DNA of 50,400 nt from Paludibacter sp. (GTDB lineage Bacteria > Bacteroidota > Bacteroidia > Bacteroidales > Paludibacteraceae), in NCBI GenBank assembly GCA_013426815.1, contig JACDZH010000003.1:1-50400 (forward strand), read 5' to 3'. Shown here piece by piece: positions 24,634 to 28,674 of this stretch. The notes under the pieces were generated by a model, which saw only the letters and a program-made list of their open reading frames with translations, did not search any database and was not told the DNA's origin. Each line of letters starts with the position of its first letter. The stretch's first letter is position 1. A program made the position numbers and the translations under genes.

Positions 24634-26389
24634 TCTCAATATAAAAAAAGGATCACCATCCGACGAAAAAGTCAGTACTTCAACTACACTGAAACGGATG
24701 ATGACACTGATGGGCAACGAGCGTAAAAACCTCTATTTCGCCATGATTTTTATTTTCATCAACTCAGGTTTAAATCTTGTTGGACCTTATCTGATAGGAC
24801 ACGCAGTAGATACTTTTGTTCAAACAAAACAATATGATGGCGTTATAAAATACAGTATTATTTTGTTTGGTGTATTCTGTTTGGCTTTGGTGAGCGGTTA
24901 TACACAAACACAATTGATGGGGCGAGTTGGTCAGCGAATGTTGTTTAATCTTCGTAATACTGTCTTTAATAAATTGCAGGAATTACCTATCGACTTCTTC
25001 AATCAAAATAAAGCTGGTGATTTGATTTCACGTGTTAATAATGATACTGACAAAATCAATCAGTTTTTTTCGCAATCATTGGTACAGTTCATGAGCAGCA
25101 TTTTTACCATGACCGGCGCGGGCATTTTTCTTATTTCAATTAACATAAAACTTGGTTTTGCTGCACTTGTTCCTGCTTTACTTTTATTATTTTTTACACA
25201 AATGGTTTCGCCCTGGGTAAAAAACCGTAATGCAATCAATCTAAAAAGTACCGGAAGCATGAGTGCCGAAATTCAGGAAAGTTTGAATAATTTTAAGGTA
25301 ATTGTTGCATTTAACCGTCGCGATTATTTCCGAAAACGTTTCGAAGAGGTTAATACCGAAAATTATCAAAGTGCCGTTAATGCAGGAATAGCAAGCAACG
25401 TTTTCACTCCGGTATATGGATTACTGGCAAATATTGGGCAATTGGTCGTATTGGCATTTGGTATTTACCTCATTGCTGTTGGACAATTTTCGGTGGGATT
25501 ATTAATCAGCTTCTTGGCATATATTAATCAATTTTATAATCCACTCCGACAAATAGCTGCTTTGTGGGCTAATTTTCAAGTAGCTCTGGCAGGTTGGGAT
25601 CGTATTTCGCAGATTCTGGTGATGGAAAATAATTTGAAAATTATTGAAACAACTGAACCTGAAGATACAAGATGCATGTTGGAATTCCGCAATGTCTCTT
25701 TTTCTTATATTCCCGGAAGTTTAATTCTGAAAGATGTTAGTTTCAGTTTAGAACGTGATAAAACCTATGCATTTGTTGGTCCAACCGGTGGAGGAAAAAC
25801 CACTACTGCATCGCTTATGGCACGTTTATACGACCCAACACAAGGCAAAATATTTTTAAATGGTGTTGATATTCGGTCGTTAAGTGCCAGTAATCGAACC
25901 GCTAAAATTGGATTTATTTTACAAGAGCCATTTCTTTTTACAGGTACAATTCGCGATAATATTTTATATGGAAACGAATGCTTTAATCATTTAACTAACG
26001 ATGAATTAATAGCTGAACTTAAAGAAGTCGGACTTGACGGTTTAATCGAACGTTTCGATGGCGGACTTACGGCGGAAATCAAATTATCCGGTGATGGTAT
26101 TAGTCTTGGTCAAAAACAACTTATAGCATTTATGCGAGCTGTAATTCGTCGTCCCAATTTGCTTATCCTTGACGAAGCTTCGGCAAATATCGATACGGTT
26201 ACTGAACAATTGCTGGATGAGATTTTGAAAAAATTACCAAAAAGCACCATTCAAATCATCATTGCGCACCGCCTTAACACCATCGAAAATGCAGACGAAA
26301 TATACTTTGTGAATGCCGGATCCATAACAAAAGCCGGTTCGATACAAGATGCTGTGAATTTGTTGATGAAAGGGAAAAGAGAAAGTTGA
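24623..26389 (+). CDS. ABC exporter half-transporter, catalytic partner
   Basis: Second half of the heterodimer, 588 residues with six helices (about 37-315) and an ATPase domain. Walker A is GPTGGGKT (386-393), Walker B LLILDE (513-518) with the catalytic Glu, and the H-loop His549 is present (IIAHRLNTIE). Its signature is degenerate (ISLGQKQ at 493-499 instead of LSGGQ). Together with the partner, one composite site keeps all catalytic residues and the other does not, as in TM287/288 and LmrCD. The ATG at 24623 overlaps the partner stop codon region. Confidence 0.94.
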   Translation: MSYNLNIKKGSPSDEKVSTSTTLKRMMTLMGNERKNLYFAMIFIFINSGLNLVGPYLIGHAVDTFVQTKQYDGVIKYSIILFGVFCLALVSGYTQTQLMGRVGQRMLFNLRNTVFNKLQELPIDFFNQNKAGDLISRVNNDTDKINQFFSQSLVQFMSSIFTMTGAGIFLISINIKLGFAALVPALLLLFFTQMVSPWVKNRNAINLKSTGSMSAEIQESLNNFKVIVAFNRRDYFRKRFEEVNTENYQSAVNAGIASNVFTPVYGLLANIGQLVVLAFGIYLIAVGQFSVGLLISFLAYINQFYNPLRQIAALWANFQVALAGWDRISQILVMENNLKIIETTEPEDTRCMLEFRNVSFSYIPGSLILKDVSFSLERDKTYAFVGPTGGGKTTTASLMARLYDPTQGKIFLNGVDIRSLSASNRTAKIGFILQEPFLFTGTIRDNILYGNECFNHLTNDELIAELKEVGLDGLIERFDGGLTAEIKLSGDGISLGQKQLIAFMRAVIRRPNLLILDEASANIDTVTEQLLDEILKKLPKSTIQIIIAHRLNTIENADEIYFVNAGSITKAGSIQDAVNLLMKGKRES

Positions 26390-26415
26390 AATATATTCTT
26401 ATTCTGAAAATCCAT

Positions 26416-26872
26416 TGTCTGAATCAGAATTTACAGAATTTAAGAATTTACAGAATGTTCGTTGAATATCAGTTTATACTGCAAACTTCTACTTCCAAAG
26501 TTAATCAATAAACCTTTACTGAATTTGTATGCGACTAAATAATTTTTAGCTTGAGCCAAATGTACATCTTCTAAATTAATTAATGCTTTTAGTTCGACAA
26601 TTACTTTGTTCTCAACCACAAAGTCAGCTCTACGAGTCCCTACATGTATTCCATTATAATAAATGGGTTGTTCTATTTCTCGTACATAGCTAATTCCTGC
26701 TTGCTCTAACTCTATTGCCAAACACCGTTGATAAATTACTTCTTGAAAACCATTACCAAGAGTGTTATGCACTTTCATTGCACAGCCAATAATATCGTAA
26801 GTAAGTTTGTCCTTTTCCATTACGTTCTCTTATTCTGAAAATTCATAAATTATGTGAATTCTGATTCAGACA
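26416..26872. repeat. 41-bp terminal inverted repeats enclosing the GxxExxY gene
   Basis: Left arm 26416-26456 and right arm 26832-26872 are inverted copies identical at 37 of 41 positions; the outer end reads TGTCTGAATCAGAATT in both. They enclose exactly one gene; the left arm overlaps its last codons and the right arm lies 11 nt before its start. The whole unit is 457 bp. No transposase is encoded, so if it moves it must be mobilised in trans; mobility is an inference supported by the truncated second copy 354 bp away. Confidence 0.85.
26440..26820 (-). CDS. GxxExxY protein
   Basis: Member of the GxxExxY family found in Bacteroidota and many other bacteria, function not established. The 126 residues carry the naming motif in GNGFQEVIYQ and a core TRRADFVVENKVIVELKAL, an Asp then Glu-x-Lys pattern typical of the PD-(D/E)XK nuclease fold, so a nuclease-like role is plausible but inferred. 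It sits inside a pair of 41-bp inverted repeats, and the C-terminal codons are encoded by the left repeat (…SVNS). No partner gene is attached. Confidence 0.85.
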   Translation of the reverse strand: MEKDKLTYDIIGCAMKVHNTLGNGFQEVIYQRCLAIELEQAGISYVREIEQPIYYNGIHVGTRRADFVVENKVIVELKALINLEDVHLAQAKNYLVAYKFSKGLLINFGSRSLQYKLIFNEHSVNS

Positions 26873-27075
26873 TTTACCTGCAAATTTAGTAAATTATATC
26901 GAATTGTTACGATATCGCGGTTTAATAACGATTACTATCGGGATAAACATATTGCAATAGGCATCAGATTGATAGACAACAAAGACTCACCGAATTATGC
27001 CTTTGCTTGTAGTTTTTGTATTTAAAATCCATACTTTGTTAAACTTGCAACATAACAAACCACCTTTCAAGCGGA

Positions 27076-27185
27076 CCCCTGCTGGCGCGGATTTGTAATC
27101 CGTGCCTTGTTCAACATGCAATATCACAGACATTTATCATTGCTTTGTATTGGCACAGATTGCAAATCTGCGCCAGCTGGGGGAA
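27076..27185. repeat. REP-like imperfect inverted repeat
   Basis: Left arm 27076-27106 (core GCTGGCGCGGATTTGTAATC) and right arm 27152-27185 (core GATTGCAAATCTGCGCCAGC) are inverted and about 80 percent alike, with a 45-nt spacer. The arms are GC-rich against an AT-rich background. I know such GCGGATTT...AATCCG hairpins as recurring intergenic elements of Bacteroidota. Confidence 0.75.
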
Positions 27186-27201
27186 GATTCACGAATACAT
27201 T

Positions 27202-27300
27202 TTAAAAATAAACACTAATATGAGTAAAACCATTACCAAGAGTGTTATGCACTTTCATTGCACAGCCAATAATATCGTAAGTAAGTTTTTCCTTTTCCAT
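27202..27300 (-). pseudogene. truncated second copy of the GxxExxY gene
   Basis: From the ATG at 27298-27300 the minus strand encodes about 25 residues nearly identical to the start of the intact GxxExxY gene (KLTYDIIGCAMKVHNTLGNG), then runs into unrelated sequence and stops after 32 codons. The similarity at DNA level spans 27226-27367 against 26746-26887 and includes one intact right terminal repeat (27312-27352). The left part of the cassette is missing. Confidence 0.85.
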
Positions 27301-27449
27301 TACTTTTTCTTATTCTGAAAATTCATAAATTCAGTGAATTCTGATTCAGATATTTTCCGGCAAATTCACTTATTCCAACCTTAGTTTGCCCAATCTATTT
27401 GTTTTATGTCTGTTTCAGTGTAAAATATCCTAAAATTGCCATCTCTGCA

Positions 27450-27479
27450 TTGCAAAATGGAAATATTTAGGTAATTTTG
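27450..27479 (+). promoter_or_regulatory. promoter of the AAA ATPase gene
   Basis: TTG at 27450-27452 and TAATTTTG at 27472-27479 are 19 bases apart, a close match to the Bacteroidota promoter. The leader before the ATG at 27496 would be only about 10 nt. Confidence 0.6.
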
Positions 27480-27495
27480 CAGCAAAATAATTTGA

Positions 27496-28674
27496 ATGGA
27501 GGCGTTTTATAAAACTCATACCTATTTAGTCGAACATGTACAATCGCCGGTAAAGCGATTGTTGATGGACGAAATAGATTGGTCGCACCGCCTGATAGGG
27601 ATTAAAGGCAGTCGTGGTGTGGGGAAAACTACATTTTTGCTTCAATATGCCAAAGACCATTTTGGTTCTGACCGAAGATGTTTATATATCAATTTCAACT
27701 CATTTTATTTTACTAAACATACGCTTGTTGAATTTGCAGCAGAATTTTATGCTCAGGGTGGTAAAACTTTACTACTTGACCAAACATTCAAATATGAAAA
27801 CTGGTCGAAAGAATTGAGGGAGTGTTACGATCGTTTCCCTGAATTACATATTGTTTTCTCAGGATCTTCGGTAATGCGATTAATTGAAGATAATAATGAT
27901 ATTCAGGACATTGTAATCTCTTATAATTTACGGGGATTTTCTTTTCGGGAGTTTTTAAATTTACAAGCCGGAATAACTCTGCCATCATATAGTTTGGACG
28001 AAATTATTAAAAATCATGTTCAAATTGCTCAAAACATTTGTCAACAAGTTCATCCACTTGATTATTTTCAACCTTACTTACATCACGGATATTATCCATT
28101 CTTTTTAGAGGAACGTAATTTTTCTGAAAATTTGCTGAAAACCATGAATATGATGTTGGAAGTAGATATCTTATTGATTAAACAAATTGAGCTTAAATAT
28201 TTATCTAAAATACGAAAACTGCTTTATTTATTAATGTGTAGTAGTCCCGGTGCCCCAAATGTAAGCCAGTTAAGCAAAGAAATTGAAACATCGCGTGCAA
28301 CAATCATGAATTACATTAAATACCTGAAAGATGCCCGATTGCTGAATACATTATATACCGAAGGCGACGAATATCCCAAAAAACCAAATCAGGTTTATGT
28401 GCACAATACAAATTTGATGTATGCAGTGAATTTAGAAAATATCAATAAAGATGCTGAGCGTAAAACATTTTTTTACAATGCTTTACATGCATTACACAAA
28501 GTAAATATGTGTAAATATCAATTGGATTTTTGCATCGATCAACATTATCATTTCAGATGTGAAAATAAACCCGAAAATGGTAAACATTATTCAAAAGCAA
28601 TGTATGCTGTCGACGATATTGAAATTGGAAATAAAAATATTATACCTTTGTGGTTATTCGGGTTTTTATACTAA
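27496..28674 (+). CDS. AAA-family ATP-binding protein with DUF4143-like C-terminus
   Basis: Member of the large ATP-binding family (AAA_14 plus DUF4143) that occurs in many copies in Bacteroidota; cellular role unknown. Of 392 residues, 30-50 contain the P-loop GSRGVGKTTFLL, then ELHIVFSGSSVM (Walker B/sensor region), a winged-helix-like part around 250-300 (LSKEIETSRATIMNYIKYL), and a C-terminal domain ending IPLWLFGFLY. In relatives this last domain carries an EVGGK-type nuclease-like motif; here the aligned stretch reads FRCENK and so departs from it. The stop codon abuts an inverted-repeat element. It has its own promoter and no partner. Confidence 0.85.
   Translation: MEAFYKTHTYLVEHVQSPVKRLLMDEIDWSHRLIGIKGSRGVGKTTFLLQYAKDHFGSDRRCLYINFNSFYFTKHTLVEFAAEFYAQGGKTLLLDQTFKYENWSKELRECYDRFPELHIVFSGSSVMRLIEDNNDIQDIVISYNLRGFSFREFLNLQAGITLPSYSLDEIIKNHVQIAQNICQQVHPLDYFQPYLHHGYYPFFLEERNFSENLLKTMNMMLEVDILLIKQIELKYLSKIRKLLYLLMCSSPGAPNVSQLSKEIETSRATIMNYIKYLKDARLLNTLYTEGDEYPKKPNQVYVHNTNLMYAVNLENINKDAERKTFFYNALHALHKVNMCKYQLDFCIDQHYHFRCENKPENGKHYSKAMYAVDDIEIGNKNIIPLWLFGFLY

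Follow-up and report, generated by a model that had tools for sequence, protein, structure and literature searches.

The interval 26416-26872 of the window (the whole 50,400-nt stretch of Paludibacter sp. contig JACDZH010000003.1, assembly GCA_013426815.1, that we analyzed) carries a gene of the GxxExxY family between long inverted arms, and, taking jointly the two readings in which this unit moves, we consider it quite probable that it is a mobile hairpin-ended cassette. In our reconstruction, the interval represents a complete copy of a small mobile element (about 450-830 bp) whose ends are long inverted arms (GTCTGAA-YNNG-RATT, then more RATT boxes every 8-9 nt), with the single GxxExxY gene as cargo and with arms-only copies of about 80-150 bp as MITE-like short forms. 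As to what moves it, our preferred reading is a tentative one, to which we give somewhat less than an even chance: that the GxxExxY protein, and not an outside factor, would be the engine of a nuclease-driven element.

The window locus

The 41-bp inverted arms with 37/41 matches claimed in a preliminary description of the window were borne out by repeat search. The left arm (26416-26456; it starts TGTCTGAATCAGAATTTACAGAATT) was also recognized from the same end sequence around homologous genes, and the right arm (26832-26872) from folding; each is 41 nt long, they are complementary at 37/41 positions (90%), and 375 nt separate them. The arms enclose a single gene, an intact GxxExxY gene of 126 residues on the minus strand (26440-26820; TIGR04256, Pfam and a structure model). 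Both the family of this gene and the reported extension of its coding region into the left arm held up: the protein matched TIGR04256 with 136.7 bits against a cut-off of 35 (E 4e-40) and Pfam PDDEXK_3 (PF13366) with 130.8 bits against a cut-off of 22 (E 4e-38), and the 3' end of the gene, with its last codons, reaches 17 nt into the left arm. Pairing of the arms by chance was excluded by a BLAST search of the arm against the 3.77-Mb genome, which recovered the partner arm at E 3.4e-9, together with folding of the minus strand of the element, which closes end to end via the arms (-110.5 kcal/mol, z -4.65) with a stability matched by 0/100 shuffles.

The locus was more complex than first described. 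A remnant found by repeat search, 20 nt from the inner portion of a right arm (26396-26415), abuts the left arm directly, and a truncated second copy at 27226-27366, 94% identical to 26746-26886, retains the gene start (minus-strand sense) and the right arm without a left arm. The window copy sits between two protein ORFs and is antisense to both, a rare orientation among the cassettes. Another palindromic repeat (CTGGCGCGGATTTGTAATCCGTGCC... / ...GGCACAGATTGCAAATCTGCGCCAGC) lies at 27076-27184, between the cassette and its truncated copy, and parts of it were seen again in the window's genome and in G698, a relative from the same genus. We dismissed as chance an Rfam microRNA match at 27080-27178 (38 bits, gathering score 89), which is on another hairpin. 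No rRNA match was found in 26300-27500 at E-values up to 1.

The window's genome held six GxxExxY matches. Arms of the GTCTGAATC type were not found elsewhere in this genome, this locus alone carrying them. Loose matches to a 15-mer of the arm numbered 29 (three within this locus) versus 2 for the reversed control; by eye a full arm was present at none of the 14 match loci inspected, and the enrichment carries no weight. When four of the other five genes were checked for inverted repeats of any kind on their flanks, long arms quite different in sequence from the GTCTGAATC type were present at L001 (score 19) and L004 (score 25), and a perfect 12-bp inverted repeat at L002; at L005 none above background was found. 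The other GxxExxY genes of this genome give no support for GTCTGAATC arms, and two or three of them bear arms of their own. Copies of the arms do not always flank GxxExxY genes, as gene-less short pairs exist in other genomes, and in this genome GTCTGAATC arms flank just one of the six genes.

Within the window's family, G721 has a GxxExxY cassette of 466 bp with GTCTGAACCAT arms, and G719 has 5 clean short pairs in 8 stretches, its nearest GxxExxY gene being distant (42%, E 1.7e-22). G698 was the one relative searched in the window's genus; it has both genes that flank the window cassette, 54 kb apart, with the GTCTG arm absent at both and no GxxExxY gene at E 1e-20. In G698 the orthologous ABC gene is followed at its 3' end by a hairpin-like stretch of another family (L401), with ACATAG units, that resembles the arms of the GxxExxY gene L004 of the window's genome.

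The GxxExxY protein

The GxxExxY gene is under strong purifying selection: median dN/dS was 0.044 in the 12 pairs with dS <2 among 87 pairs of at least 86% identity, the other 75 having dS of 2 or more or undefined. Six residues (E27, D66, E76, K78, Q90, and Y94) were invariant in 30 sequences, the last five of which we take to be the D...E-x-K core and the QxxxY motif. Foldseek searches with an AlphaFold model (pLDDT 90.8, pTM 0.82) gave Cas4 SSO0001 as the best match (E 6e-5), followed by LHK-Exo, Cas4 Pcal_0546, and lambda exonuclease (E 1e-3 to 3e-3), all with loose superpositions (TM near 0.5, rmsd 4-15 A). PADLOC gave a weak Cas4b match (E 0.006), and no solved structure related by sequence was found. 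The modelled protein is likely, as to family though not in its details, a minimal PD-(D/E)XK nuclease of the Cas4/RecB/lambda-exonuclease type; the predicted fold agrees with the nuclease-like cargo first proposed.

In a tree of the protein (79 rows, 120 columns), in which many forks are open, phyla are intermingled, and the branches with good support require the Bacteroidota label to change at least 5 times. GxxExxY matches were also seen within open frames of 883-896 residues, possible fusions, at G519:C17:474845-475186, G423:C22:338277-338618, G435:C1:72354-72695, and G414:C9:91041-91382. We know of no role for the family. In the literature searched, whose scope left most subscription papers and preprints outside, GxxExxY was named only in passing, and titles and the openings of abstracts held no description of the element.

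Arms around related GxxExxY genes

Contig searches with four cassette proteins matched at least 589 stretches (at least 559 relatives), and the best 80 were retained; arms had led to three of these four queries, a possible bias toward armed relatives. With an arm scored as the core GTCTGAATCAGRATT at no more than 2 mismatches within 350 bp of the gene, these 80 loci had an upstream arm in 66, a downstream arm in 58, and both in 53, versus 6, 7, and 0, respectively, among 407 displaced windows of the same loci. Homologous genes elsewhere, which the preliminary description had allowed might be armless, do have the arms, and its proposal of a mobile cassette is supported by the 53/80 loci with both arms along with gene-less pairs and a junction found both empty and occupied. 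By the phylum labels of their records, the 53 cassettes span 8 phyla: Bacteroidota, Thermodesulfobacteriota (L101, L135), Ignavibacteriota (L125, L129), Cyanobacteriota (L124), Pseudomonadota (L140), Chloroflexota (L170), Candidatus Binatota (L145), and Bacillota (L107); many are metagenome bins, and single phylum cases may be mis-binned. A sample in which arms were not used (the 29 best gene matches in phylum genomes) had a flanking inverted repeat scoring at least 12 in 22/29 loci, versus 1/64 for its displaced-window control.

Arm sequence differs between subfamilies but follows a common theme (GTCTGAATCAG, GTCTGAACTCG, GTCTGAACCGG, GTCTGAACCGC, GTCTGAACTAT). Across 72 cassettes the first RATT box falls at nt 12-15 and three more at about nt 22-24, 30-31, and 39-40; these three lie outside the part used to find arms and are conserved, and conservation is symmetrical at both ends. 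Arm type correlated with protein distance (Mantel r 0.63, 0/5000 permutations, 73 cassettes); at one junction the same correlation was r 0.55 (16/5000), with clear separation for the TCAG type only. At L091, L142, and L159 we saw by eye short diverged duplications of a neighbor gene end flanking the cassette on both sides.

Arms without the gene

Among genomes of the class, a 24-mer of the arm was found at no more than 3 mismatches in 16/395 (the window's included) versus 2/395 for the reversed control. The concern that the arms might be confined to the window locus applies within its own genome but not beyond it: the exact 15-mer arm core occurred in 28/296 genomes of the phylum (the window's included) versus 0/296 for the reversed control. 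In a sample chosen by arms (L066-L095 and L176-L237, with five window loci omitted), 44 of the 87 loci examined were single arms, having no arm pair at the threshold used, and the others gave 43 distinct pairs. Of these, 31 were 81-149 bp and contained no gene, and six were 465-603 bp, each of which (6/6) enclosed a GxxExxY gene; the remainder were one of 244 bp, one of 397 bp, and four of 803-1080 bp. One arm matches poorly in the 397-bp pair and in all pairs of at least 803 bp, which look like chance, as do a few short pairs (L194 320-431, L223). A gene-bearing form and a short form both exist, alongside many single arms. One genome, G498, had 4 arm cores and no GxxExxY gene at E 1e-20.

The arm pattern was also seen in 21 stretches of predicted viral contigs (L403-L423), seven with pairs, some of 93-99 bp and some arrayed. 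The GxxExxY gene had no match in phages and no confirmed occurrence in viral contigs. Three plasmid records matched the gene, all under 60% identity, and the short element had one weak partial match in plasmids.

Sites and junctions

With a site cluster defined by a homologous neighbor on the same side, the 53 cassettes fell into 30 clusters, biosynthetic and topoisomerase genes among them. Of 61 protein pairs with at least 85% identity, 37 were at different sites and 24 at a shared site; L097/L099, scored as different, are possibly a local duplication. Taking as neighbor the longest open frame within 400 bp, some of which may be spurious, both neighbors ran in the direction of the gene in 40 of the 53 cassettes; the orientations (+,-), (-,-), and (-,+) accounted for 5, 3, and 1, and one neighbor was missing in 4. 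Two of the three reading frames run open through the arms. The upstream same-strand frame runs at least 20 nt into the element in 16/52 neighbors, giving tails such as RLNQDLQD and KLSESEF, and in 7/52 it ends at the third base of the element, TGA being the next codon. As raw counts, Methylase_S was found in 13/52 upstream neighbors, and HSDR_N, N6_Mtase, and Methylase_S in 5, 4, and 4 of 50 downstream neighbors. Ketol-acid reductoisomerase (Pfam) was found in 2/52 upstream ORFs, which fits L112 and L133.

Empty sites exist. At the L152 junction (putative leuC-leuD), 30 loci of one genus comprised 17 with a GxxExxY gene, 11 with other inserts, and 2 that were empty (L289, with a gap of 4 nt, and L285, with a gap of 14 nt); 13 of the 17 had paired GTCTGAA arms of at least 3 types, and L278 had a GTCTGAATCAG remnant followed by a GTCTGAACCGG element. 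Boundaries vary at this junction, and no insertion was caught in progress. At a putative acyltransferase-ABC junction of one genus (L238-L267; 30 loci inspected of 61 matching genomes), most loci carried, by eye, hairpin-like inserts; these belonged to several sequence families and included about six of the GTCTGAA kind. L258 had 30 nt only. Different insert families occupied this junction in different species, as if elements replace one another. No fixed-length target-site duplication (TSD) was found in 79 elements with k-mers of 2-9 nt; the largest excess was a 2-mer offset by 2 (24 versus 15 expected), and no longer k-mer was notable. Approximate 9-of-10 direct repeats were seen near the ends of 13/79 elements, versus 4.4% of shuffled pairs.

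Relation to known systems

Genes of the four-helix-bundle family (TIGR02436, the 23S-IVS protein family; L328-L357) also lie between inverted arms, in 27/30 loci against a null of 0/59; the 30 loci were drawn from 95 matches in 15 genomes, the majority of which had been picked as arm-rich, and the best inverted repeat alone was scored. By eye these arms consist of 7-8-nt tandem units, many of them different, and the loci are possibly a sister class of elements. The intervening sequence (IVS) of Coxiella 23S rRNA is about 430 nt with an S23/four-helix-bundle ORF, a 28-bp terminal stem, and heptamer repeats; it is patchy in distribution and thought to be horizontally acquired, its origin being left unexplained there (PMC4990558). 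Our element is like an IVS in its terminal inverted repeats, which form a long stem, in its one small ORF, in a mobility that for the IVS is left unexplained, and in short tandem units near the ORF (PMC4990558). It is unlike an IVS in that IVS reside within 23S rRNA, from which RNase III excises them (PMC4990558), while the element is mostly between protein genes, has dispersed arms-only copies, and has an ORF matching GxxExxY/PDDEXK_3 alone and not S23/four-helix-bundle.

The element resembles MITEs in being short and dispersed, with terminal inverted repeats and in-frame fusions with host ORFs (PMC10969869). The label MITE-like was apt for the inverted repeats and the multiple short copies in other genomes, but not for a TSD of fixed length; moreover, no parent transposase was found (Y1/RAYT searched), and there is a gene-bearing long form with a nuclease as its sole gene. 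REPs with RAYT and TIRtrons likewise have intergenic repeats that are palindromic, long TIRs on both sides of a gene, and dispersed TIR copies (PMC3733652), but the gene flanked here is GxxExxY and not a Y1 transposase. Of 72 matches to RAYT genes (PF01797), suggested at the outset as possible mobilizers with matching ends, in 15 genomes, 30 loci were examined, and none showed such arms within 900 bp of the gene, Y1/RAYT being the transposase type searched; two loci had arm-like sites farther off (L367, about 930 bp; L364, about 1.2 kb). Rickettsia palindromic elements (RPEs) are likewise palindromic inserts fused in frame with genes (PMC10969869), and CGTC repeats from Bacteroidetes, Chlorobi, and Spirochaetes apparently have no dedicated transposase (PMC3733652). 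Compared by description, RPEs and CGTC repeats are unlike the element in being about 150 bp with no such gene described in the excerpted sources (PMC10969869, PMC3733652).

Casposons and Cas4-carrying elements have a CRISPR-related nuclease within an inverted-repeat element; unlike casposons, the element has no Cas1 integrase or polymerase, the nuclease being alone. The element behaves as a MITE would if its master copy bore a gene, and its anatomy resembles that of an IVS, yet it is neither as these are defined, since it has no fixed target duplication (MITE), lies outside rRNA, and has another ORF (IVS).

What may move the element

The arms fold into one long stem and leave two frames open, so that in our reading the element is tolerated at gene ends inside operons, where it lengthens the upstream protein or gives it its final codon and stop (GTC-TGA). 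In the mechanism we tentatively prefer, the minimal Cas4/RecB/lambda-exonuclease-like nuclease would recognize and trim the hairpin or cruciform arms, host strand-annealing or repair would paste the element elsewhere without a target-site duplication, and the short forms would be mobilized in trans. We infer a mobility role for the GxxExxY protein from its gene being the sole one inside, strongly conserved, and from the tracking of protein type by arm type (Mantel), although arms and gene are linked, so that their co-divergence requires no recognition. Co-occurrence argues in the same direction: among 295 phylum genomes with the window's left out, those with at least 3 exact arm cores had GxxExxY in 7/8 at E 1e-20, 1e-30, and 1e-38, versus 90, 52, and 44 of 287 other genomes, and those with at least 1 core had it in 14/27 versus 37/268 at E 1e-38, by a statistic that ignores kinship; the effect depends on the cut-off and is lost at E 1e-45 (2/8 versus 25/287, p 0.16). 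Also against the protein as engine are G498 and G719, where several arms or short elements occur but a close GxxExxY gene is lacking, the 44/87 arm-found loci without a detected partner arm, the lack of dispersed arms in the window's genome, the antisense placement of the window copy (unlike 40/53), the varying boundaries at the L152 junction, and the fact that no insertion was caught in progress. We know of no nuclease of such a fold that moves DNA alone.

A serious alternative, which we rate as only slightly less likely, is that an unlinked host or phage factor moves any such long hairpin, with the GxxExxY or four-helix-bundle (23S-IVS/S23) gene as cargo kept for a benefit such as defense or RNA/DNA processing. 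The most telling point in favor of such a shared factor from outside is the placing of four-helix-bundle genes, which lack the nuclease, between similar unit-repeat arms, the architecture being common to two unrelated small genes (27/30 against a null of 0/59, and 22/29 against 1/64 for GxxExxY). It would also fit hairpins of different sequence at the same gene junction in different species, the G719 short elements and G498 arm cores without a close GxxExxY gene, and the arm pattern in the 21 stretches of predicted viral contigs. A passenger role for GxxExxY fits less well with the arms-first sample, where no other gene was recognized between GTCTGAATC arms (all 6 mid-size pairs held GxxExxY), with the gene's presence in 7/8 arm-rich genomes at E 1e-38, with the very strong purifying selection on it, and with the lack of such ends at the 30 loci of RAYT, the obvious candidate. 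We think it improbable that the element does not move itself, being a host-useful nuclease gene with a hairpin that rides in horizontally moving operons, chiefly restriction-modification, with ordinary recombination added. Restriction-modification genes are frequent among the neighbors (as raw counts) and 24/61 close pairs share a site, but the other 37 do not; the 30 site clusters include biosynthetic and topoisomerase genes, arms-only copies are dispersed in other genomes, and gain of a cassette at a new site with unchanged flanks was partly seen at the L152 junction. A role for the arms in plain transcription termination, or as a hairpin that regulates the gene, with no mobility, would account for their strong hairpin and for the many that are intergenic, but is very improbable given that both ends are symmetrically conserved, that the end sequence is conserved across phyla where synonymous sites are saturated in most close pairs, and that gene-less pairs of 81-149 bp with the same arms are dispersed.

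Beyond the nuclease-driven reading we prefer, a bolder form of it, which we think unlikely, is that a 120-residue Cas4/RecB-like nuclease, the arms, and host repair would suffice for an autonomous hairpin element, copied into operon junctions across phyla and one of a wider class of unit-repeat hairpins. If true, this would be a new category of mobile element, in a class that would also take in the four-helix-bundle elements, with the 23S rRNA IVS as its known tip.

A unit with defined ends makes the spread of GxxExxY genes a testable question. The results suggest that intercistronic hairpin elements which lengthen host proteins by C-terminal tails form a widespread class. They also offer possible relatives outside rRNA for the question of how 23S rRNA intervening sequences move.
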